Below, in pieces: positions 1 through 20,598 of a stretch of 64,000 nucleotides of DNA. The translations under genes were made by a program, and so were the position numbers. Below the pieces are notes generated by a model. That model had not been told where the DNA came from. It saw nothing but the letters and a program-made list of their open reading frames with translations, and did no database searches. Position 1 is the first letter of the stretch. Each line of letters opens with the position of its first letter. Source of the stretch: Vreelandella zhuhanensis (GTDB lineage Bacteria; Pseudomonadota; Gammaproteobacteria; Pseudomonadales; Halomonadaceae); NCBI RefSeq assembly GCF_009793355.1, contig NZ_WTKP01000003.1, forward strand, positions 124,001-188,000, given 5' to 3'.

Positions 1-3000
1 AAGATGCCGGCGAGCGGCTTCGGCTTCCAGCGGTGCCAGGGTGACGTTTCCTGCCTTAGAAAGAAGTTGCGTGGTCATGGGGCTTTCCAGGTTACCCGCC
101 AAATGCGAAACCCAGGGACGCAGCAAGTGATGCCAGTGGTAGGTTTTTTTCTTGATCAGGCTGCTGCTGAGTAGCAGCAACCGGCAGCGGTTGCCGTGAC
201 TATCGGTGCGTATGGCGTCCAGCCAGTCCTCCAGCGGTGGCGAGCCGGGGTGCGAATAATACACCGGCTGTGGTTCCTCCATGGCATGGGGCCACTCTTC
301 CAGGGCGTTCGCGTAGTCCTCGAACAGCGCCGCCATGGGGTCGGCGAGCTGCTGGCGCATACGCTCGGCGAAGGCGCCCATGGCCAATACACCCTGGCCT
401 TGCAGGCGTTCGAGTGTGTCGTGCAATGCCTGCTCACGCGGCTGGCCGTTGTCGATGGCGTGGCGCTGCGCCTGGATCAGGGTATCTTGCAGCTGCCAGT
501 TTTCCAGGCCGTTCAGGGTGAAGGGTTCCTGGTCGAGGCTCAGGATATCCTGCTGTTCGAGGTAGATCTTGAGCCGGGTGGTGAAAAACGCCTTGGTCGG
601 GTCGCGCAGAAAATTGCCCAGCTGGCTCAGCGTCAGGGGGTTATCCTGCTCGAAAGCGGCCAGAGGGCCTTCGGTTTCCGCGTCTTGCGAAAGCTTATTC
701 GGAAGGTCGCTGAGTACCAGAGGATCGCTGTGTACCTCGCGCCATTCATGGGCATAGGTGATCAATCGCTGGGCGGCGACATCGCAAGCGGCGTGTTGCG
801 CGGGGCTGGGGAAGTAGACACGGCTGAACGGCTGCAAGGGGTGTTCGGTGGTCAGGGCCGCGAGCAACGCTTCCCCGGCGTCTGCATCTGCCTGGCTGTC
901 TCGCCAGCCCGCCTTGAGATGGTCGCGCAGCTGGCCGACCAGCACCGAAGGCGGCTTGTCGGAGTTATCCACGATGCTACGTCCCACCCAACTGAGATAG
1001 AACTGGTCACGCGCCGAAAGCAAGGCCTCCAGAAATAGGTAGCGGTCATCCTCGCGGCGCGAGCGATCGCCGGGGCGGTAGTCGACGTTCATCAGATCGA
1101 AATCCAGCGGGGGATGGCTTCTGGGGTAGTCGCCGTCGTTCATGCCCAGCAGGCAGACGCGCTTGAAGGGAATCGCGCGCATCGGCATCAGGGTGGCGAA
1201 GTTGACCGCCCCGGCCATGAAGCGCTGGGAGAGACTGTGCTCATCGATCTGTTCCAGCCAATGTTCGCGGACGATGGCCAGCGGCAGCTCATTCACTAGC
1301 CCGGCTTCCTCGGTGCTTTCCTGAAAACGTTGCAGGGCGTCTTCGAGCTGGGTCAGCATCAGGCTGTCGCGCGCGTCCTCGGCGCGAAAACAAGCTTCCA
1401 GTAGACCGCGCAAGCGCTGTGCCCACTGTTGGGCATCGCTCGGGCTCTGAAGCTTTTCCCACCAGTCCTCCAGCGTTTCGAGCAAACCGGCCAAGGCGCC
1501 GGCCAGGGCGGCTTCCAGGCCGCCGATATCATCGAAAGGCTCGATGCCTTGCCAGGCGCCGCTTCCGGCATTGCCCAGGGTGTAGCCCAACAGCAAACGG
1601 CGTAGGCCGAACGCCCAGGTGTTCTGTTCCATGCCCTCAGGCAGGTCCAGGTTGTGACGCTGGCCGCTGTGCAGCCCCCAGCGAATGCCGGCGCCTTGAA
1701 TCCAGCGCGCGAGAGTCGGGAGGTCACTTTCCTGGATACCGAAGCGTGCACGCAGTGCAGGTACCTCCAGCAGGTCCAGAAGCTCGCTCACCGACAGGCG
1801 CAGTTCGGGTAGGCGCAGCAGGGTTTCCAGGGCAATCAACAGCGGTAAACGGTGGCGGCTACCCTGGTCGGAAAGCGTAAAGGGAATATAGCGCGGGTCG
1901 TCGCGTTCGAGCCGGCCGAAGACCGCCCGTATATGCGGGGCATACTGGTCGATATCCGGCACCATCACGATGATGTCTCGGGGGCGCAACTCGGGGTCGC
2001 CACTAAAGGCGGCGAGCAGCTGGTCGTGGAGTATTTCCACTTCGCGCTGGGGGCCATGAGTGACATGAAACACGATGGACGCGTCCTGACGGGGATCAGC
2101 GTTCGGCCAGTGCTCGCGGGTTTCCGCTAAGGGGCGCAGTTCGCGGATGTCGTCCTGCAGTTGATGCAGCAGGCGGGGCTTGTCCGACTCATCGACGAAG
2201 GGTTCGAACAGATCGATACGCAGCGCCTGATGTTCGAACAACCCCTGATAGGCACCGGCGTCGTCGTGTTCGTCGAGCAGGCGCAGGTAATCGCGCCCCT
2301 GCTTGCCCCAGGCCGCCAGCAGCGGTTGGGCGTGCAGGTGCAGATCGGCTTCGCCATCGCCTGCGCCCAGCACATCCAGGCGTTCGGGCATACCGCTCTT
2401 GCGCCGTTGGCGACGACTTGTGGCTCTCAAAAGCTCCTTGTGCTCGATGATATCGGCCCAGTAATACTGGCAGGGATTATGCACGCACAGCAGCACTTGG
2501 CTGAAGCGGGCGATGGCGGCCAGGGCTTCCAGGGTTTGCTGGGGCAGTGAGGAAATGCCGAACACGATCACCCGGCGCGGCAGGCCGGGCGGAGGTTGAG
2601 ACGCGCTGAATGCCTGGGTGGCGTCGAGAAAGCGCCGATGCACCTGGGCACGGCTCGAAGAAATGTCATCCTGGGCGATGTCGTTGGCGACACTTTCACA
2701 GACAGCCCGCCACAGCGCCGGTTGCCAGCGCTGAGCATCGTCCAGGGGCTTGGGTTCGCCATGGGCGCCGAGCAAGGTGTCCTGTCCTTCGGCCCAGACT
2801 TCCAGCCAGTCGGCGCGATAGACCTGATATTGGTCGAAAAGGTCGGCCAGGCGCTCGGCGAGTTGATGGTGCTTGCGCAAGTCGTTATCACCATCCAGAA
2901 ACTGGCGCAGCGCAGCGAACTCTTCGCGTTCGACCAATTCCGGCAGCAGGCGCAGCAATCGCCATACCAGGCGAGACTTGTCGAAGGGCGAGGTGGTGGG

Positions 3001-3309
3001 CACGGCGTCTGTTTCGCCCCCACCTTCATGGGCGTTGAGCACCGAGCGATACGCCTGCCACAGAAAGCGTGCCGGCAAGCTGATATCCAGTGCGGCGGCG
3101 ATACCCGCCCCGCCCTGGGCCGCGTCTTCGGCCAGCGCCAGTTTCAGCCACTGGCCGATGCCGTTGCTCTGTACCAGGATGGTCTCGTTTTCCAGCGGGC
3201 CGAGAGGATGGCGCTGCATCCATTCCACCGCCAGGCCGCGCAGGTCTTCCATGCGGTTGCCATGGATGACCATGAAACCGGGTGTAAGAGCGGCGGCAGT
3301 GCTGAGCAT
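1..3309 (-). CDS. recC: RecC, exodeoxyribonuclease V gamma subunit (3' end beyond window)
   Basis: RecC is the Chi-recognising subunit of the RecBCD helicase-nuclease, which processes double-strand breaks for RecA-dependent repair. The reading frame is open for 1103 codons from the ATG at 3309 to the window edge; the family is about 1120-1160 residues, so only the extreme C-terminus is missing. Recognisable RecC signatures are the N-terminal FMVIHGNRMEDLR, the FGISSLPQQ segment, MVPDIDQYAPHI and the LLGMNDGDYPRS motif. An AAGGA element sits about 7 bases before the ATG. recB and recD would be expected leftward, outside the window. A 20-bp tandem duplication lies just upstream of the start. 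Identification is firm from these motifs and the length. Confidence 0.95.
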   Translation of the reverse strand, partial: MLSTAAALTPGFMVIHGNRMEDLRGLAVEWMQRHPLGPLENETILVQSNGIGQWLKLALAEDAAQGGAGIAAALDISLPARFLWQAYRSVLNAHEGGGETDAVPTTSPFDKSRLVWRLLRLLPELVEREEFAALRQFLDGDNDLRKHHQLAERLADLFDQYQVYRADWLEVWAEGQDTLLGAHGEPKPLDDAQRWQPALWRAVCESVANDIAQDDISSSRAQVHRRFLDATQAFSASQPPPGLPRRVIVFGISSLPQQTLEALAAIARFSQVLLCVHNPCQYYWADIIEHKELLRATSRRQRRKSGMPERLDVLGAGDGEADLHLHAQPLLAAWGKQGRDYLRLLDEHDDAGAYQGLFEHQALRIDLFEPFVDESDKPRLLHQLQDDIRELRPLAETREHWPNADPRQDASIVFHVTHGPQREVEILHDQLLAAFSGDPELRPRDIIVMVPDIDQYAPHIRAVFGRLERDDPRYIPFTLSDQGSRHRLPLLIALETLLRLPELRLSVSELLDLLEVPALRARFGIQESDLPTLARWIQGAGIRWGLHSGQRHNLDLPEGMEQNTWAFGLRRLLLGYTLGNAGSGAWQGIEPFDDIGGLEAALAGALAGLLETLEDWWEKLQSPSDAQQWAQRLRGLLEACFRAEDARDSLMLTQLEDALQRFQESTEEAGLVNELPLAIVREHWLEQIDEHSLSQRFMAGAVNFATLMPMRAIPFKRVCLLGMNDGDYPRSHPPLDFDLMNVDYRPGDRSRREDDRYLFLEALLSARDQFYLSWVGRSIVDNSDKPPSVLVGQLRDHLKAGWRDSQADADAGEALLAALTTEHPLQPFSRVYFPSPAQHAACDVAAQRLITYAHEWREVHSDPLVLSDLPNKLSQDAETEGPLAAFEQDNPLTLSQLGNFLRDPTKAFFTTRLKIYLEQQDILSLDQEPFTLNGLENWQLQDTLIQAQRHAIDNGQPREQALHDTLERLQGQGVLAMGAFAERMRQQLADPMAALFEDYANALEEWPHAMEEPQPVYYSHPGSPPLEDWLDAIRTDSHGNRCRLLLLSSSLIKKKTYHWHHLLRPWVSHLAGNLESPMTTQLLSKAGNVTLAPLEAEAARRHL

Positions 3310-3327
3310 GGCGGTTCCTTCGCGAGG

Positions 3328-3366
3328 TTTCGGGGCTAGTCAGGCAGTTTCGGGGCTGGTCAGGCA
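3328..3366. repeat. Tandem 20-bp duplication upstream of recC
   Basis: The 19-base unit beginning TTTCGGGGCT and ending CAGGCA occurs at 3328-3346 and again at 3348-3366 with one A/G difference, giving a period of 20. It lies in the leader of recC. It may be a simple slippage duplication; no function is evident. Confidence 0.7.
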
Positions 3367-3535
3367 AGGCGTATGGTGCCATAGCATAAGGGTCGAGTCT
3401 GCTATCAACTCGATGCCTCTTGGGACGAGTGGCAATTGGATCGAGTGGCAAGCGGCGTTGCAAGACCAGCGGACTTGGCTAAGGTGAGAAGTGACTACGT
3501 GCTTTTATCGAGACAGAATTTTAACAGGAGTCAAT

Positions 3536-3724
3536 ATGCCTAAGGCGAACAATAAACAAGCCCGTATCGAGCCTATCTATGAGGCCGACGATCTGCATCA
3601 GAACGTGATCGGTTGGCATGTGATAGATGAAACGGAGCCCGAAAACGAGGTGGTGGTCAGTGAACATGAAACACAACAGGAGGCGATCGAGGCGGCCAAG
3701 GAATTTGAACAACGCGAAATTTGA
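3536..3724 (+). CDS. Small acidic protein of unknown function (62 aa)
   Basis: A 62-residue protein starting MPKANNKQARIEPIYEAD. The start at 3536 is chosen because AGGAG at 3526-3530 precedes it at ideal spacing, while the upstream in-frame ATG/GTG options have no ribosome site. The C-terminal half (GWHVID, then EVVVSEHETQQEAIEAAKEF) has the look of short DUF2188-type proteins, a beta strand pair followed by an alanine-rich helix, but I do not claim the family. There is no signal peptide or membrane segment. It stands alone between recC (divergent) and a convergent HTH gene, with a strong hairpin after its stop. Likely a real gene because of its good ribosome site and typical codon use. Confidence 0.7.
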   Translation: MPKANNKQARIEPIYEADDLHQNVIGWHVIDETEPENEVVVSEHETQQEAIEAAKEFEQREI

Positions 3725-3775
3725 AAGCGCTAGGCTTCATCAATCCGCAGTCTAGGCCATTCAAGGCACAGAATA

Positions 3776-3800
3776 ACAAGCGCGCCATAGGCGCGCTTGT
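3776..3800. terminator. Hairpin terminator between convergent genes
   Basis: A perfect 11-bp stem (ACAAGCGCGCC, loop ATA, GGCGCGCTTGT) lies between the stop of the 62-aa gene and the stop of the leftward HTH gene. T-rich sequence follows on the minus strand (TTGTTATT). It probably terminates both convergent transcripts. Confidence 0.75.
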
Positions 3801-3838
3801 CGTTCGAGATAGGTGGGTATAGCAACGTCGCACTGGTC

Positions 3839-4117
3839 TTATGGTGGCGTGAGCTCCGGTTCGATGGTGCGGCGCAGGATGAGCAATTCATCGAGGCTCA
3901 AATGTTCCAGGCGACCGGATAGCAGGTCGCTAATCTTCTGCACGGGAAGGCCTGCACGCTGAGCGATTTCACGGCTTCCCAATTCCGAGGCGGCAATCAG
4001 CCGGGTAAGAATGCGCATCAAGCGCGTGCGTTTTTCCAGTTCCCTGACGTCGAGGTCAGGGCTGCTTCGCGGAGGATCAACCAGATCCGTGCCAGCGAAC
4101 GAATGTGCCGTACTCAT
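3839..4117 (-). CDS. Small HTH (XRE-like) transcriptional regulator
   Basis: A 92-residue protein with a helix-turn-helix in its C-terminal half: the run ELGSREIAQRAGLPVQKISD followed by LLSGRLEHLSLDELLILRR is the classic Cro/C1 pattern (helix 2, turn G, recognition helix, then a fourth helix). It is close in size and layout to solitary HigA/COG5606-type antitoxin-like regulators, but no toxin gene is adjacent. The start at 4117 is preferred over a longer frame because GGAG lies 5 bases upstream. It is transcribed away from purE. Target and ligand are unknown; autoregulation is plausible but not shown. Confidence 0.75.
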   Translation of the reverse strand: MSTAHSFAGTDLVDPPRSSPDLDVRELEKRTRLMRILTRLIAASELGSREIAQRAGLPVQKISDLLSGRLEHLSLDELLILRRTIEPELTPP

Positions 4118-4311
4118 GGTGCTCCAATAGGCAATTGCGACAGGCACAGAATGCCGCTAATCGCAGCGCATTTTCAATGGAAAAATGATGAAAATTTCAT
4201 TGCCGAGGCAAATGCCCTGCGAATGGCTGGCTCTGGTAGACTGTGCGCCTTATTTTTCGGGTGTCATTGCACCGCGTTTTCTCGATTGGCCGCTTGGCCG
4301 AGGAGTTATGG

Positions 4312-4827
4312 ATGTCGTCGAACAGCTCGCCCAAGGTGGGTGTGATCATGGGGTCAAAGTCGGATTGGCCGGTAATGGAACATGCCGTCGCCATGCTGGA
4401 GCGTCTGGGCGTGAGCTATGAAACCCGTGTGGTATCGGCACATCGCACCCCGGATTTGCTGTTCGACTATGCCAAATCCGCCGCCGACCGTGGCCTTCAG
4501 GTGATTGTGGCCGGTGCCGGTGGTGCAGCGCACCTGCCGGGGATGGTGGCCTCGCAAACGCCGCTTCCTGTCTTGGGTGTGCCGGTGGAGTCCAAGGCGC
4601 TCAAGGGACTGGATTCATTGCTCTCGATTGCTCAGATGCCGGGAGGCATTGCCGTGGGCACGCTGGCGATTGGCAAGGCAGGTGCCACCAATGCCGGACT
4701 TCTGGCAGCGCAGATCGTCGGCTTGCATGATAAGGCCGTGCGCGAGGCCGTCGAGGCGTTTCGTTCCGAGCAGACGCAGAACGTGCTTGATAACCCGGAC
4801 CCGCGTCCCACCCCCGAGTCACAATGA
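4312..4827 (+). CDS. purE: PurE, N5-carboxyaminoimidazole ribonucleotide mutase
   Basis: PurE moves the carboxylate of N5-CAIR to C4, giving CAIR in de novo purine synthesis. The 171-residue protein shows the class I PurE signatures: GSKSDWPVM (14-22), SAHRTPD with the catalytic histidine (residue 45), [11 protein letters not shown] (68-78) and [16 protein letters not shown]. The start at 4312 is supported by AGGAG six bases upstream; the longer frame lacks similarity before this Met. purK follows immediately, so the two cytoplasmic enzymes form a two-gene operon. Dependence on PurK (class I chemistry) is expected from the pairing. Confidence 0.97.
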
Positions 4828-4853
4828 GCCTGAACCGCAATGAGGATAGCACC

Positions 4854-5966
4854 ATGAATATCGGCATATTGGGAGCTGGCCAGCTGGGCCGGATGTTGGC
4901 ACTGGCCGGTTATCCTCTGGGTAATCGGTTCACGTTTCTGGACACCACTGGCAACCCCAGCGTGGGCATTGGGGAGGTGATTGTCGACCCGGAAAACACC
5001 CAGCTCGAGACCTTTCTCGACCAGGTGGACCTAGTGACCTACGAATTCGAACATTTGCCCGTCGAGCTGGTACGCGAGATCGAAGCGCGCAAGCCGGTGT
5101 ATCCAAGCAGCCGTGCGATTGCGGTATGCCAGAACCGGGTGGAAGAAAAGACGTTGTTCGAGCGCCTGGGCATTCCCACCCCGGCCTATCGGGTGGTGGA
5201 AAGCGCCGAGCAGCTGAAAGCAGCAGCCCTTGAACTGGGTTGCCCGGTAGTGGCTAAGTCGGTCACCGAAGGCTATGACGGCAAGGGGCAGGCGGTACTC
5301 AAGACGCCCGAACAGGCCGAGCAGGCCTGGGCCGAGATCAAGCATTCCAAGCTGATCGTCGAGGCTTTCGTCGATTTTGTGCGTGAGGTCTCGATGATCG
5401 CCGTGCGCGGCCGCGATGGCGACGTGGTGTTTTATCCCATGGCGGAAAATGTCCATGTGGACGGTATTCTGCGCTACTCCCTGGCGCCGCTGCCCGATCT
5501 GGACGAAGGCGTTCAGCAAACCGCCGACAGCTATATTCTGTCTTTGCTCGATGAACTGGATTACGTCGGCGTGCTGGCGCTGGAGTTGTTCCAGACGCCT
5601 GATGGCGGACTTCTGGCCAACGAGATGGCACCTCGGGTGCATAATTCGGGCCACTGGACGCAGAACGGTGCCGTCACCAGCCAGTTCGAGAATCATTTAC
5701 GTGCCATTCAAGGTCTGCCCCTGGGCCAGACCGCCGCACTGGCACCGACCTGCATGGTCAATGTCATCGGTCGTGAAGGTGACAGCGCTGACATCCTGGC
5801 GTTACCCGATGCCCATCTGCATCGTTACGACAAAAGTGAGCGCCTCGGTCGAAAGCTGGCCCATATCAACCTGGTGGCGCCCACCCATGGTGAGCTTCTG
5901 GAGAAGGTGCGTCGCTGCGCCGCTTTATTGCCGGAGGCTTCCGCGCCGCGCTTCAGCTTCGAGTAG
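4854..5966 (+). CDS. purK: PurK, N5-carboxyaminoimidazole ribonucleotide synthase
   Basis: PurK is the ATP-grasp enzyme that carboxylates AIR with bicarbonate and ATP, supplying PurE. The 370-residue sequence begins MNIGILGAGQLGRMLALAGY, the typical dinucleotide-like start of the family, and has the ATP-grasp core with VAKSVTEGYDGKGQ near residues 145-160 and ANEMAPRVHNSGHWT near 255-270. An ATGA overlap with the purE stop offers an upstream start at 4824, but the ATG at 4854 matches the family N-terminus and has GAGGA about 8 bases upstream. It is the second gene of the purEK operon. Confidence 0.96.
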   Translation: MNIGILGAGQLGRMLALAGYPLGNRFTFLDTTGNPSVGIGEVIVDPENTQLETFLDQVDLVTYEFEHLPVELVREIEARKPVYPSSRAIAVCQNRVEEKTLFERLGIPTPAYRVVESAEQLKAAALELGCPVVAKSVTEGYDGKGQAVLKTPEQAEQAWAEIKHSKLIVEAFVDFVREVSMIAVRGRDGDVVFYPMAENVHVDGILRYSLAPLPDLDEGVQQTADSYILSLLDELDYVGVLALELFQTPDGGLLANEMAPRVHNSGHWTQNGAVTSQFENHLRAIQGLPLGQTAALAPTCMVNVIGREGDSADILALPDAHLHRYDKSERLGRKLAHINLVAPTHGELLEKVRRCAALLPEASAPRFSFE

Positions 5967-5995
5967 GCCTAGGCTGCTATTTTAGGCGCCCATCT

Positions 5996-6304
5996 TTAAG
6001 CGCCTATGATACCGCCGTCCTCACGGCTGATGACCAAGGTGGCCGAGCGGGGAAGGGCCTGTCCGCCTTCGGGCCAATGACTGGATAACTCGCCACTGGC
6101 GAAGGCTTCGGCGCTGGTGCTTGCGCCGGGGTACTGGACATTGACGAACAGGGTGCGTTGGTCGGGGGTCATGATCACGCCGGTAATTTCCTGGCCGACT
6201 GGGCCGGTGAGAAACCGCTTGATCTCACCGGTTTCAGGATTGGCTGCATGGTGCAAAAAGCTCGCCTCGGAGTCGTCCGATATGATGACAATGCAGACCG
6301 TATT
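5996..6304 (-). pseudogene. C-terminal remnant of a PhoX/DUF839-type phosphatase
   Basis: This frame encodes about 100 residues that look like the end of a PhoX-family (DUF839) alkaline phosphatase: PETGEIKRFLTGPVGQEITG, MTPDQRTLFVNVQYPG and the terminal PRSATLVISREDGGIIGA. The similarity-like stretch continues upstream of the only candidate start (a TTG) through SDDSEASFLHHAANP, then meets an in-frame stop at 6305-6307. The roughly 500-600 N-terminal residues of such enzymes are absent; the sequence there is the start of the rightward prenyltransferase gene. It is best read as a truncated relic. The call rests on recalled family motifs. Confidence 0.7.
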
Positions 6305-7181
6305 TCAGGCAACAAGGCCCGGATTTCTGATCTTGGCCCCGCTTTGTGCCCTGCTGGGAATCTTGCTGGCGGTGCACCAGCCTATCTTGCTGGCTCCCTT
6401 GGAGATCGTGTTAGTCATGGTGGGCGGGTTGTTGGCTCATGCTGCCGTCAACCTGCTTAACGAATACGAGGACTTCCATTCGGGGCTCGACCAGATAACA
6501 CAGCGCACGCCATTTTCAGGCGGTAGCGGCGCTCTGCCAGCCGAACCCACGGCAGCACCGGCGGTATTGAGTGCGGGGGTGGCAGCGCTAGTTGGCGTGG
6601 TGGCTATCGGGGGCTACTTTTTCTGGGTGCGAGGTTGGCCGGTGCTGGCTTTCGGGACTATCGGGCTGGTGCTCGTCGTTACCTATACGCGCTGGATCAC
6701 GCGTTCAGCATGGCTTTGCCTGCTGGCCCCGGGAGTGGGATTCGGCTTGGCAGTGACTCTGGGCGCACTGATAGCGCTCGGTGGCCGAGTCGATTTGTCG
6801 GCACTGATGGTATCTGTGGTGGTCGGGCTGCTGGTAAGCGAGTTGTTGCTGCTCAATCAGTTCCCGGACAGCGAGGCTGACCGACATATTGGGCGCCGGC
6901 ACCTGCCGATCGCGATTGGACTGCACCGCGCCGCTTGGCTGGTGGTCGTGATGCTGCTTGGGAGCTATGCAGTGACAGGACTGGCCGTGCTGACCGGATG
7001 GCTACCAGTGGCAGCCATGTTGTCCTGGCTAACACTTCCTGGTGCGCTTTGGCTGGCCTGGCAACTGCCTGGGGCACTGAAAGATCGGTCGCGTCTCGAG
7101 CCTTTGATGGGGCTCAACGTGGTGGTGTTGCTGGTGACTCTTGCTTTGCTGGCGGCAGGGCTTTGGTTAGGTTGGCCCTGA
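6282..7181 (+). CDS. UbiA-family prenyltransferase (MenA-like)
   Basis: A 299-residue, strongly hydrophobic polytopic membrane protein of about eight to nine predicted helices. The two Asp-rich motifs of the UbiA superfamily are visible: NEYEDFHSGLD at 60-70 and NQFPDSEADRHIGRR in the middle, which bind magnesium-prenyl diphosphate. The form of motif 1 and the following PFSGGSGALPAE resemble 1,4-dihydroxy-2-naphthoate prenyltransferase (MenA) more than UbiA itself. No other menaquinone genes are nearby, so the acceptor substrate is unknown. The start is one of three close Mets; 6282 has CGGAG nine bases upstream. The extended frame from 6117 runs antisense through the PhoX relic and is rejected. 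Confidence 0.85.
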   Translation: MMTMQTVFQATRPGFLILAPLCALLGILLAVHQPILLAPLEIVLVMVGGLLAHAAVNLLNEYEDFHSGLDQITQRTPFSGGSGALPAEPTAAPAVLSAGVAALVGVVAIGGYFFWVRGWPVLAFGTIGLVLVVTYTRWITRSAWLCLLAPGVGFGLAVTLGALIALGGRVDLSALMVSVVVGLLVSELLLLNQFPDSEADRHIGRRHLPIAIGLHRAAWLVVVMLLGSYAVTGLAVLTGWLPVAAMLSWLTLPGALWLAWQLPGALKDRSRLEPLMGLNVVVLLVTLALLAAGLWLGWP

Positions 7182-15263: not shown

Positions 15264-15863
15264 ATGACTAAGGTTCTGGTACTTTACTATTCCATGTACG
15301 GGCATATCGACACCATGGCAAAGGCCGTAGCGGAAGGCGCCAAGGCCGTCGAGGGAGTGGAAGTGACGCTCAAGCGTGTACCGGAAACCATGGACCCTCA
15401 GGCTTACGAGAAGGCCGGCGGCAAACAGGACTTTGATACTCAGGAAGCCACCCCTGCGGAACTGGCCGACTTTGACGCCATCATCGTGGGAACGCCCACG
15501 CGCTTTGGCAACATGACCGGACAGATGCGCACCTTTTTCGATCAGACCGGCGGGCTGTGGTTCAGCGGTGCACTGCGCGGCAAGGTGGCCAGTGTCTTCA
15601 CGTCCACCGGTACCGGAGGTGGAGAGGAGATGACCATTACCTCCACCTGGACGACGCTGGCCCACCACGGCATGGTGATCGTGCCGATCGGTTATGGTAT
15701 CGAGGAGCAGTTCGATATTTCCCAGGCCAGTGGCGGAACGCCCTATGGAGCCTCCACCATGGCCGGCGCCGACGGCTCGCGCCAGCCCGATGAACGCGAG
15801 CTCAAGATCGCCCGTTTTCAGGGCGAATATGTGGCAGGCATTGCCGCAAAGCTTGCAGGCTGA
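15264..15863 (+). CDS. wrbA: WrbA, NAD(P)H:quinone oxidoreductase type IV
   Basis: WrbA is a flavodoxin-like FMN enzyme that reduces quinones by two electrons and protects against redox cycling. The 199-residue sequence shows the FMN phosphate loop [12 protein letters not shown] (9-20), [20 protein letters not shown], and STGTGGGEE and PYGASTMAG, all diagnostic of the family. AAGGAG lies seven bases before the ATG. It appears monocistronic. The protein is cytoplasmic and normally a tetramer. Confidence 0.96.
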
Positions 15864-16163
15864 TGCCGACCTGCCGGGCGGGCCCATCCTGTCAATGACC
15901 GTAGCCACGCAGGTCCCGATCCGCTGGGCCATCATGAAGGCTGCCACCAGTGCCAAGGGCGCCAGGATGCCGGTGAGCATGGGGTAGCGCCGATAGGGCA
16001 CCGTGTCTCGATTGAGCTCCTTGGTCCGTCAAGTTGACTTGCATTTGACTTGTATCAAGGTGCTCCCAGATGACCCGGGCAGACAATACGACAATACGAC
16101 AATACGACAATGCACTAAGCTCTAGGTGTTGTGAAAAAAGTTATTCTCTTAGAGGTTTAAGTT
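15864..16163. other. Intergenic region with 8-bp tandem repeat
   Basis: No gene is supported in these 300 bp. A minus-strand stretch around 15885-15997 reads like the hydrophobic N-terminus of a membrane protein (YRRYPMLTGILAPLALVAA), but it runs into the antisense of wrbA, so it would be at best a truncated relic. The region ends with the repeat below and the promoter area of the rhodanese gene. Confidence 0.4.
16083..16110. repeat. ACAATACG tandem repeat
   Basis: ACAATACG is repeated three times in perfect tandem with a fourth partial unit (ACAATGC). It lies 55-80 bp upstream of the rhodanese start, within reach of its promoter. Slippage could vary the copy number. Confidence 0.85.
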
Positions 16164-16751
16164 ATGAAAATGACGCATTCATTGGCGGGTTCTTTGCTGG
16201 CGGCAACGCTCTTTTCCGGCCCTGCCTTGGCTGAGGAAGACGTCCCCGCCTACCGGGAGACGCAACTGGGACTCTACGTCACGGCGAGCGAGGCCTATGA
16301 ACTGATGCAGGACAAGGAGCGAGCCGTCCTGATCGACGTGCGCGATCCCATCGAGATCAAGTTCACCGGCTTCGCCGAGCCCACTGATATCCATGTGCCT
16401 TGGGTGCTGGCCGACCGGAGAAACTTCGATGAGGAAGCGAAGACCTGGCCAATGGTCAGGAATGTCGATTTCGAGACCCAGGTGCGCGACGAACTGGAAG
16501 CCTTGAACGTGGCCGAGGACGACCCGATCATCGTCATGTGCCGCTCCGGCGCCACTCGCAGCGCCCCGGGCGCCGACATTATCACTGAGATGGGCTTCAG
16601 CCAGGTCTATTCGATGACCGATGGTTTCGAGGGTGGCAAGCTCGAGGAGGGCGACTCCAAAGGCGTGCGTGCGGTCAACGGCTGGCGCAATTCCGGCCTG
16701 CCCTGGAGCTACGAGATCGACCCCGACGTCGCCTGGCGCGCGGCTGAGTGA
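16164..16751 (+). CDS. Periplasmic rhodanese-like protein
   Basis: A 195-residue exported protein with a Sec signal peptide (MKMTHSLAGS, cleavage after ALA). The mature part is a single rhodanese domain: VTASEAYELMQ, VLIDVRDPIEIKFTG and the active-site loop MCRSGATR with the catalytic Cys. An extension after the first beta-alpha unit (VPWVLADRRNFDEEAKTWPM) is unlike housekeeping GlpE/PspE and is seen in rhodaneses encoded near sulfur-compound cytochromes. Immediately downstream lies the decayed octaheme cytochrome/cytochrome b locus, so it probably once acted with those proteins in periplasmic sulfur metabolism. The gene itself looks intact. Confidence 0.88.
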   Translation: MKMTHSLAGSLLAATLFSGPALAEEDVPAYRETQLGLYVTASEAYELMQDKERAVLIDVRDPIEIKFTGFAEPTDIHVPWVLADRRNFDEEAKTWPMVRNVDFETQVRDELEALNVAEDDPIIVMCRSGATRSAPGADIITEMGFSQVYSMTDGFEGGKLEEGDSKGVRAVNGWRNSGLPWSYEIDPDVAWRAAE

Positions 16752-16911
16752 ACGCCATCAGGAGGCCTTAGCCGCCGCTGGCTACCGGCTTGTTGGGTCT
16801 GCTTTGTCGCCAACTCGGGTTTCAGGGCCTGATGGTTAGAGATGGTGACGCCTTGTCGCTTGGCAAATTGGGAAAGACTGACTTCCGTCCAGGCGCTGGC
16901 GAGCCTCAGGA

Positions 16912-17527
16912 ATGTTGGCGCTGATGTATCTTGTGCTGGTATTGCCGGCGCTGGCCAGCACCGCAGACCACCATGAATTCGAGACACTGCAGGGGCCTTT
17001 CGAGAGGGGTGAGGAAGTCACCAAGGCTTGCTTGAGCTGTCATACCGAGGCAGCACAGGAGGTGATGCAGCGGTGGACGGCGGAGACTTTCGCTGCAGCA
17101 CCTGTCATCAGACCGAGAATCATGCGGTGCCCGGTAGCCGCATTCAGGTTTCGGCGGTGGACCACAATCGGGCGATCCGCCGAGGTGAGGACACCGATCG
17201 AAACCCGGCCACCTGCCAGGCGTGCCATGGCAATGCGCCTCACGAGGAGGGCGCAATGGCTTCGCGCCTCAACGAGCATACCCGGGCGCTGGCCTGCCAG
17301 ACCTGCCACATTCCCACCTTCGCTCGCGGTGGGGTGCCTACCAAGATGGGCTGGGACTGGAGCAGGTGGCCGGGCTGCACGCCCTGGGCGCCTTCCTGAT
17401 GCTCGCCTTCGTGATCATCCACGCCTACCTGGCCACCGTGGGCCACACGCCCACAGCGCATATCAAGGCGATGATCACCGGCTGGGAGGATGTACATGAC
17501 AAGGAGGTGATCAAGCGCAGATCCTGA
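16912..17527 (+). pseudogene. Octaheme tetrathionate reductase-type cytochrome c and cytochrome b remnants, fused by deletion
   Basis: Three frames carry pieces of two genes. Frame A (16912-17070) gives an exported N-terminus, then FERGEEVTKACLSCHTEAAQ with one CxxCH. Frame B (about 17075-17360) gives CSTCHQTENHAVPGSR, NPATCQACHGNAPHEEG and LACQTCHIPTFARGGVPTKM, three more heme sites of the octaheme (Otr) type, but the central part with the other hemes is missing. Frame C (about 17357-17527) gives VAGLHALGAFLMLAFVIIHA and AHIKAMITGWEDV, the C-terminal helix and tail of a thiosulfate-reductase-like cytochrome b. Thus at least two internal deletions and frame changes have fused the relics. Family assignment is from remembered motifs. 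Confidence 0.8.
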
Positions 17528-17551
17528 AAGTGAGAGACGTGAGTGGAACGA

Positions 17552-17581
17552 CGACGGCCACCACCAAGGTGGTGGCCGTCG
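17552..17581. terminator. Strong palindromic terminator
   Basis: A 14-bp palindrome (CGACGGCCACCACC, AA, GGTGGTGGCCGTCG) sits between the cytochrome relic and the convergent dehydrogenase gene. It probably ends transcription from both sides; a U-run is lacking. Confidence 0.65.
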
Positions 17582-17603
17582 CGCCATGACAAGGTAAGCC
17601 CGC

Positions 17604-18677
17604 TCAGGCAGTGATGTGCTCGGCGATGGCGCGTCCCAGGCTCTGGGTGGTGCCTTTACCGCCTATGTCGGGCGTCAATAGCTGGGCGTCCCCGCTTTCC
17701 AGTACCGCTTCGATAGCCTTTACCAGCGTATCGGCGGCCTCCTGATGACCTAGGTGCTCAAGCATCATCGCCCCCGACCAGATTTGACCAATGGGGTTGG
17801 CAATGCCCTTGCCGGCGATATCCGGGGCGCTGCCGTGAACCGGCTCGAACAGGCTGGGGAAATTGCCTTCCGGATTGATATTAGCCGAGGGAGCGATGCC
17901 GATGGTACCGGTACAGGCGGGGCCGAGATCCGAGAGAATATCGCCGAACAGGTTGCTGCCCACCACCACATCGAACCAGTCCGGGTGAAGCACGAAGTTG
18001 GCAGTGAGAATGTCGATATGGAACTTGTCCACAGCGATTTCCGGATAGCCCGCGGCCATCGCCTCCACGCGTTCATCCCAGTAGGGCATGGTAATCGAGA
18101 TGCCGTTGGATTTGGTGGCCGAGGTGAGCTTCTTTCGAGGGCGGGTGGCCGCCAGTTCAAACGCGTACTTGAGCACGCGGTCCACGCCCGTGCGCGTCAT
18201 GATCGTATCCTGAATCACTACCTCGCGTTCGGTACCCTCGAACATCTTGCCGCCCACGCTCGAGTATTCACCTTCGGTGTTTTCGCGTACCACGTAAAAG
18301 TCGATATCGCCCGGCTTACGTCCGGCCAGCGGGCCCTTGATGCCAGGCATCAGCTTGCAGGGGCGCAAGTTGATGTACTGGTCGAAGCGCCGACGGAACT
18401 GTAAAAGCGAGCCCCATAGCGAGATGTGATCGGGTACTTTTTCCGGCCAGCCCACGGCCCCGTAGAACAACGCATCGAAGTCCTTGAGCTGCTCGAACCA
18501 GTCGTCCGGCAGCATCTTGCCGTGTTCGAGATAATAGTCGCAGCTGCCGAAGTCGAATGTCTGAAACTCAAGCGCAATATCGAAGCGTTCGGCGACTGCT
18601 TTCAATGCGCGCAGCCCTTCGGGGATGACTTCGGTACCGATGCCGTCACCGGCGATCACAGCAATACGGTGACTCAT
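17604..18677 (-). CDS. dmlA: D-malate/tartrate dehydrogenase (decarboxylating)
   Basis: A 357-residue member of the isopropylmalate/isocitrate dehydrogenase family. Features specific to the D-malate/tartrate branch are SLWGSLLQFRRRFDQYINLR, ENTEGEYSSVGGKM, TSATKSNGISITMPYWDERV (catalytic Lys), and the Asp cluster FGDILSDLGPACTGTIGIAPSAN split here by its metal ligands. It likely oxidises D-malate to pyruvate and CO2 with NAD; tartrate and isopropylmalate are alternative substrates in homologues. AAGGAG lies about 9 bases before the ATG. It follows the DUF1338 gene by 73 bp on the same strand. Confidence 0.9.
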   Translation of the reverse strand: MSHRIAVIAGDGIGTEVIPEGLRALKAVAERFDIALEFQTFDFGSCDYYLEHGKMLPDDWFEQLKDFDALFYGAVGWPEKVPDHISLWGSLLQFRRRFDQYINLRPCKLMPGIKGPLAGRKPGDIDFYVVRENTEGEYSSVGGKMFEGTEREVVIQDTIMTRTGVDRVLKYAFELAATRPRKKLTSATKSNGISITMPYWDERVEAMAAGYPEIAVDKFHIDILTANFVLHPDWFDVVVGSNLFGDILSDLGPACTGTIGIAPSANINPEGNFPSLFEPVHGSAPDIAGKGIANPIGQIWSGAMMLEHLGHQEAADTLVKAIEAVLESGDAQLLTPDIGGKGTTQSLGRAIAEHITA

Positions 18678-20262: not shown

Positions 20263-20598
20263 TCAGTCGCGGGTCTCGCGTAACAGAAAGCTCAAGGGGT
20301 GCAGGTAGAGATAGGCGATTACCGCCACCCAGAATGCGCAGGTAGCGAGCACCACCCAGCCGAAAAACGAATCCACGTAGGCCAATTGCGAGTCGACCAG
20401 TAAAGGAAGCCACCAGAAGGCGGAGGCGCCCACCAGCAGTGAGGCGATAATCGCGCCATAACAGCGATAAACCAGAAATTGGTAGCCATGAATATAGGCG
20501 GCCAAGTGCAGTCCCAGTAGAATAATCAGCGCAATCGCAAGCGGCCATACATAGGGCTGAAACGTATCAATAAGAGAGTTCAAAAAATAAAGGTTCAT
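20263..20598 (-). CDS. Small membrane protein, unknown function (111 aa)
   Basis: An 111-residue hydrophobic protein with three predicted transmembrane segments, roughly residues 15-38, 45-65 and 78-100 (YVWPLAIALIILLGLHLAAY, AIIASLLVGASAFWWLPLL, WVVLATCAFWVAVIAYLYL). I do not recognise the family. No clear ribosome site precedes the ATG, which lowers confidence, but the hydrophobic periodicity and the tidy 54-bp gap to blc support it. An overlapping frame at 20225-20548 lacks these features. Confidence 0.6.
   Translation of the reverse strand: MNLYFLNSLIDTFQPYVWPLAIALIILLGLHLAAYIHGYQFLVYRCYGAIIASLLVGASAFWWLPLLVDSQLAYVDSFFGWVVLATCAFWVAVIAYLYLHPLSFLLRETRD

Follow-up and report, generated by a model that had tools for sequence, protein, structure and literature searches.

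How does a single rhodanese gene remain intact beside a respiratory operon that has been reduced to fragments? This question is raised by a short block between two genes of genome G000, presumably wrbA and leuB, which was studied here within a window of 64 kb, i.e. the whole stretch of DNA analysed (G000:C17:124001-188000; draft genome of 3.25 Mb in 23 contigs). A first-pass annotation had placed at positions 16912-17527 an octaheme tetrathionate reductase (OTR)-type cytochrome, fused by deletion to the tail of a cytochrome b. The block is probably what is left of a sulfur-respiration operon that was acquired by horizontal transfer and destroyed not long ago, and of which the rhodanese was retained. 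With respect to the first-pass annotation, the apparent foreign origin of the block and the likely reason for the survival of the rhodanese are new.

The family comparison set consisted of 275 genomes, G000 included. The genus of G000 (g1) was represented by 82 genomes, and the wrbA-leuB site was compared in 60 other g1 genomes, of which G060 was the most similar. A sister genus (g14) contained many OTR copies; its member G159 (locus L143) was the closest intact relative found and served as the reference for the deletion map. The features of the block and its neighbours are listed in Table 1. No tRNA genes occurred in positions 1-30000 of the window, and a promoter and terminator scan of positions 15850-17700 returned nothing.

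Table 1. Features between and including the wrbA-like and leuB-like genes (positions in the window).
Feature	Position	Strand	Remarks
wrbA-like gene flanking the block on the left, intact, native to g1	15264..15863	+	96% amino acid identity to G060
Stub, N-terminal membrane segment of a gene that precedes the rhodanese divergently in certain g14 genomes	15930..16001 (lower end approximate)	-	Left edge of the block
Exported rhodanese, 195 codons, intact, apparently foreign copy	16164..16751	+	Open frame; PF00581; 89% to G159
YgaP-TM gene relic, 21 bp	16774..16794	+	95% to L143 3818-3838, E 1.4e-4 (small search)
Remnant of the spacer 5' of OTR	16829..16887	+	80% over 61 bp (16829-16889), L143 from 4029
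OTR piece 1, residues ~8-68, with signal peptide and heme 1 but without the original start codon	16888..17070	+	
OTR piece 2, residues 217 to ~312, hemes 5-7, frame different from piece 1	17070..17357	+	
Cytochrome b561 piece, residues 152-207 of 207 in G159, third frame	17357..17527	+	
Inverted repeat after the cytochrome b tail	17552..17581	.	93% self-match, other strand; no terminator found there by scan
leuB-like dehydrogenase gene flanking the block on the right, intact, native to g1	17604..18677	-	95% amino acid identity to G060

Remnants of an OTR-cytochrome b operon

Piece 1 (from 16912) matched positions 1-36 of TIGR04315 (E 1e-11, 44.5 bits) and piece 2 (about 17070-17357) positions 184-268 (E 1.1e-29, 103.7 bits), in line with the assignment to an OTR-type cytochrome; the curated cut-off of 375 bits was not reached by the window copy, the two scores coming from two frames. 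Similarly, piece 3 is the terminal part of a cytochrome b of the b561 type (PF01292 positions 132-179, E 1.1e-7, 32.2 bits, cut-off 30.1), as had been proposed, and does not contain the full 179-position domain, which in G159 is spanned from position 2 to 179 (92 bits). All pieces were free of stops in their own frames, and the order read earlier, namely heme 1 with a signal peptide, three CxxCH motifs and the cytochrome b end, was recovered. The CxxCH motifs at 17029, 17094, 17214 and 17295 are equivalent to hemes 1, 5, 6 and 7 of the G159 OTR, which has eight. With four out of eight motifs, in two frames, the window copy is an OTR gene remnant and not a functional OTR. Indeed, OTR activity is not expected, since heme 2, described as the catalytic heme (heme II) of Shewanella OTR in the available part of PMC4484225, was lost. 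As to the fusion by deletion, the joining of the pieces by deletions stands, whereas no fusion protein is expected, because the three pieces lie in three different frames. Among the 80 named loci kept, the best match of piece 2 was to Halomonas sp. Y3 (75% identical), which makes membership of G000 in the Halomonas family most likely. No further OTR match was found in the G000 genome. The stretch 16912-17527 is best described as an ordinary, recent pseudogene with an unusually clear history.

Deletions relative to the intact operon of G159

Locus L143 of G159 encodes, in this order, a rhodanese (2542-3129), a DsrE-like protein (3202-3675), a YgaP-type membrane protein (YgaP-TM; 3705-3896; PF11127, 77 bits, above the cut-off of 25.3), OTR (4167-5768) and cytochrome b (5771-6394). 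Its OTR is a member of the TIGR04315 family, scoring 589.7 bits against the cut-off of 375 and carrying eight CxxCH motifs. Alignment of the window to this complete locus allowed the deletion ends to be mapped. Positions 16103-16769 corresponded to L143 2481-3147 (85% DNA identity), 16884-17070 to 4184-4370 (89% over 187 bp), 17070-17360 to 4815-5105 (93% over 291 bp) and 17354-17561 to 6221-6427 (87% over 208 bp), the identities of the three pieces being far above chance. A deletion of 100 bp removed the OTR start codon and the sequence preceding it, one of 445 bp removed hemes 2-4 and changed the frame, and one of 1122 bp removed heme 8, the OTR C-terminus and the cytochrome b body; their junctions share 2, 1 and 4 bases, respectively. 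Relative to G159, the interval from rhodanese to OTR was shorter by a net 822 bp, and the DsrE-like gene and nearly all of the YgaP-TM gene were absent. As the 21-bp relic and 61 bp of the spacer remain, a single deletion is required here, and a second one if the relic is true. Alignment to G159 thus points to at least four deletions, five if the YgaP-TM relic is accepted, consistent with the at least two deletions counted earlier.

An assembly error or collapsed reads could imitate such deletions, and the genome is a draft. This explanation is extremely improbable, as the block is internal to a long contig, every one of at least four junctions would need to be an artefact, and the identity of the pieces to G159 is 87-93% rather than 100%; moreover, a matching loss of the native rhodanese occurs at a second, unlinked place (see below).

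The first-pass annotation had also judged the loss to be recent. Indeed, the dN/dS of the pieces (0.096) was the same as that of intact OTR (0.097, G159-G116), and less than one-tenth of the piece divergence was gathered without constraint, as a rough hand estimate. The loss is therefore recent relative to the dS of 0.35 that separates the pieces from G159. Low dN/dS would also be expected if the short form were a working, single-heme exported protein, and the frame from 16912 is open over 195 codons, with a signal-peptide-like start and one CxxCH. Such a protein is barely credible, given that the original start codon and its upstream sequence went with the 100-bp deletion, that the frame departs from the OTR sequence after about residue 52, and that low dN/dS fits a recent loss equally well. 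In addition, relatives sharing the short form, which would have spoken for a gene under selection, were encountered nowhere among the 275 family genomes, G000 included, in which no second short form of the wreck DNA was found.

Origin of the block

To G159, a member of another genus, the dS of the pieces (0.35, 200 codons) and of the rhodanese (0.59) was lower than that of leuB (1.12). This does not simply reflect a slowly evolving gene, as within g14 (G159-G116) the dS of OTR (0.54) was not below that of leuB (0.45). To G060, the dS was 0.28 for leuB and 0.26 for wrbA; the rhodanese was saturated in this comparison, whereas the neighbour genes and DsrE were at about 0.3. Moreover, window positions 15865-17617 were missing from G060, in which wrbA and leuB almost touch and the flanks are 93% alike. 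With a dS to another genus below that of the neighbour genes and an absence from the nearest relative, the block between wrbA and leuB looks foreign to the genus.

Phylogenetic trees were consistent with this view. The OTR tree was built on 146 columns and 21 rows (the window, 17 of the 19 OTR family genomes, G228 and G229 being left out, and three outgroups) and placed the window with G159, G116 and G171 (support 100/99), and with G159 within these (88/70). The OTR of G229 is split over two contigs, and that of G171 (L145 5547-7107) matched in two frames meeting at about residue 105 and so looks frame-shifted as well, whether through a genuine break or a sequencing error. In the rhodanese tree, which comprised the window copy and those of 34 of the 61 other matching genomes, the window fell among g14 rows (94/80, not starred). 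Constraining the window rhodanese to all native g1 rows but G065 was rejected (p 0.0003), constraining it to G060 and G002 alone was not (p-AU 0.353), and constraining it to all g14 rows was rejected as well (p 0.0005), because some g14 rows fall elsewhere in this tree. The rhodanese of another g1 genome, G065 (G065:C14:280488-281072; L193), is nearer to the g14 type and 84% identical to that of the window; more than one entry of this gene into g1 is therefore possible.

An OTR match over the cut-off occurred in 19 of the 275 family genomes. In nine of these (G016, G116, G140, G145, G161, G171, G176, G177 and G181), OTR-cytochrome b adjoins leuB, and one of them, G016, belongs to g1; the other ten displayed no leuB within the stretches compared, some of which were short. 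The nine genomes, and genus-mate G016 in particular, would accord with a block that was ancestral at the wrbA-leuB site, decayed in G000 and was lost by most genus-mates, without any transfer. Such vertical inheritance is very unlikely, as it is at odds with the dS values of the pieces and leuB to G159, with a rhodanese saturated versus G060 beside neighbours and a DsrE that are not, and with the OTR tree, in which a constraint of the window to G016 was rejected (p-AU 4e-5).

A horizontally acquired block, as favoured here, has a left edge marked by a stub that is 47-58% identical over 40 residues to L196, L201 and L209, the likeness being concentrated in about the first 22 residues and the open reading frame being full-length in L201. 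The donor was not found among the 275 family genomes. G159 is the nearest of these at the block DNA, yet its OTR lies on C13 and its leuB on C26. A plasmid source was considered too, but matches were limited to 5 of 72,556 records and covered no more than 14% of the query. About 50 bp upstream of the rhodanese start, the window contained a perfect tandem repeat, GACAATAC (8-bp unit, 3.8 copies, 16082-16111).

The rhodanese and its presumed DsrE-like partner

The rhodanese gene next to the wreck is intact, as had been stated, with an open frame and a PF00581 score of 35.4 bits, above the gathering cut-off of 22.2. Its loop CRSGATRS holds a cysteine, and the protein is a predicted sulfurtransferase. 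Signal-peptide-like starts were read by eye on both the rhodanese and the DsrE-like protein. G000 contained a single rhodanese of the window type (E <= 1e-40) and one DsrE, the latter elsewhere in the genome. Indeed, G060 possesses a native rhodanese-DsrE pair on C144, to which G000:C12:405673-406307 could be aligned, with 80% identity for the leader and first codons and 94% for DsrE. About 580 bp, the rhodanese, were missing between the aligned sides, and the ATG at the head of the G060 rhodanese corresponds to ATA in the remaining G000 stub. With the native rhodanese deleted and the DsrE of the window removed, G000 thus has one apparently foreign rhodanese and one native DsrE.

The native DsrE-like protein of G000 scored 15.7 bits with PF02635, below the gathering cut-off of 22.7, and the copy of G159 gave no PF02635 match at E 0.1. 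A search of the DsrE profile against PDB sequences yielded one weak, unrelated match (E 0.49), and a fold search was used instead. The structure model of the native G000 protein (mean pLDDT 83.5; four other models 38-44) had its best PDB matches among YchN, DsrE/F-like proteins and DsrEFH (E 2e-6 to 3e-4). As the predicted fold matches and the Pfam score lies below the cut-off, the protein is called DsrE-like and not a Pfam family member.

A rhodanese match (E <= 1e-40) was found in 61 other family genomes and was absent from 213 of the 275. Among the 29 other rhodanese loci fetched from these 61 genomes, DsrE came next in 28 and YgaP-TM was present in 23. The rhodanese occurred in 7 of 19 OTR genomes versus 54 of 255 others (p 0.10), a co-occurrence that is not significant. 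The one strong YgaP-TM copy of G000 (C17:235928-236110) lies near neither locus but in the vicinity of genes resembling YeeE/YedE transporters. Judged from gene content, G000 is thus unusual in having the predicted rhodanese and DsrE partners at unlinked places, one apparently foreign and one native.

The wrbA-leuB junction in relatives

The matched ends of wrbA and leuB were less than 250 bp apart in 28 of the 60 g1 genomes, G060 included (hand count). The leuB of G167 and G143 is still accompanied by the final cytochrome b codons and the inverted repeat, with a flavoprotein gene instead of the operon and no OTR or cytochrome b match left at the site; the remnants indicate that loss at this junction occurred more than once. 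Similar flavoproteins, putatively sulfide:quinone-reductase-like, were present at the site in G002 and, alongside OTR, in G140 (L032 2032-3453, L147 4796-6130, L157 2245-3654 and L158 3908-5257 for G002, G140, G167 and G143, respectively). A Pyr_redox_2 domain was detected in the copies of G002 and G167, the two that were scanned, and a small membrane protein accompanies the flavoprotein. In G000, the flavoprotein gave no match at E 1e-5 in a search that had no positive control; a 111-residue membrane protein (window 20263-20598, minus strand) is 37-44% like the small companion. Across the family, the site thus holds OTR-cytochrome b in nine genomes, the flavoprotein in four (one also with OTR) and nothing in many others. 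Two g1 genomes displayed further irregularities, namely one TAG within the OTR match of G009 (L023, G009:C1:1187353-1188717) and two frames meeting at about residue 60 in the wrbA of G016 (L027 872-1458), which looks frame-shifted.

A wider reading of these data, put forward tentatively and held with somewhat less conviction than doubt, is that the wrbA-leuB junction may act as a family swap site for periplasmic sulfur-redox genes, and that the operon that came into G000 displaced the host rhodanese, leaving an unlinked pair of foreign rhodanese and native DsrE and a rhodanese kept alive in a dead operon.

Proposed course of events

The intact operon, as present in G159, codes for a rhodanese and a DsrE-fold protein, both exported, and further for a YgaP-type membrane protein, octaheme OTR and a cytochrome b561 resembling PhsC. 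Electrons from quinol would pass via cytochrome b to OTR, which would reduce tetrathionate or a similar substrate, and sulfane sulfur would be carried by the rhodanese and DsrE. The chemistry might involve thiosulfonate transfer from tetrathionate, as for DsrE3A and TusA; DsrE3A of Metallosphaera cuprina reacts with tetrathionate, according to the available part of PMC4175335. In G000, a copy near the sister-genus type lies between wrbA and leuB. Here, deletions have wrecked the OTR and cytochrome b genes and eliminated DsrE together with almost the entire YgaP-TM gene, whereas the native locus has lost its rhodanese and kept DsrE. The rhodanese frame would then be open beside the wreck because the foreign rhodanese and the native DsrE still work together.

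Alternatively, given the same wreck and transfer, the rhodanese could be a passenger that has merely not been hit yet, its pairing not being selected and the native loss being a coincidence. The piece dN/dS, still like that of intact genes, indicates a wreck young enough for an unselected gene to look intact, and with 213 of 275 family genomes lacking a match, the rhodanese is dispensable in general. However, several deletions struck the genes around the rhodanese and none struck the rhodanese itself; in addition, the native rhodanese is gone while DsrE was kept, although these partners are rarely apart (together in 28 of 29 loci). The passenger explanation is hence considered unlikely, and loss of the native rhodanese elsewhere in the genome is the likely reason why the window rhodanese survives. 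The split pair would represent a reciprocal loss after gene transfer.

An intact-operon relative, a genus-mate without the block and mapped deletions together form a natural experiment on the gain and loss of a respiratory module. From the complementary loss of the native rhodanese, it appears that the exported rhodanese and DsrE constitute a pair which the cell retains even when OTR is gone. This split sulfur-transfer pair and its reciprocal loss are the part of most worth, beyond an ordinary pseudogene. In the accessible portions of the literature searched, neither the wreck nor the split rhodanese-DsrE pair was described, nor was a function of the exported pair. Two Halomonas papers deal with TsdA and sulfide oxidation, the term octaheme occurring in neither main text as available (PMC9237845, PMC8014003).

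Comparison with known systems

The OTR of Shewanella oneidensis (PDB 1sp3; TIGR04315) is the closest known counterpart of the destroyed enzyme: the G159 OTR matched residues 39-484 of 1sp3 (E 9.6e-104) and has eight CxxCH motifs, and in G159 the cytochrome b gene comes after OTR. Compared with the Shewanella enzyme, the window copy keeps hemes 1, 5, 6 and 7 only and lacks a start codon and heme 2.

Sulfur-transfer modules of the rhd-tusA-dsrE2 type are cytoplasmic. As in these modules and in DsrE3A-TusA of M. cuprina, a rhodanese adjoins a DsrE-fold protein in the intact loci. Unlike the rhd-tusA-dsrE2 modules, both proteins have signal-peptide-like starts here, no TusA adjoins them in the stretches read, and in 23 of the 29 loci they are followed by a YgaP-type membrane protein.

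In xenologous gene displacement, an incoming copy is kept and the resident copy is lost. G000 would resemble such displacement, or reciprocal loss, in that the incoming rhodanese was kept and the resident one lost, and the reverse happened to DsrE. It would differ from plain displacement in that one pair became split into a foreign and a native half, while the operon that came in lost its principal enzymes.
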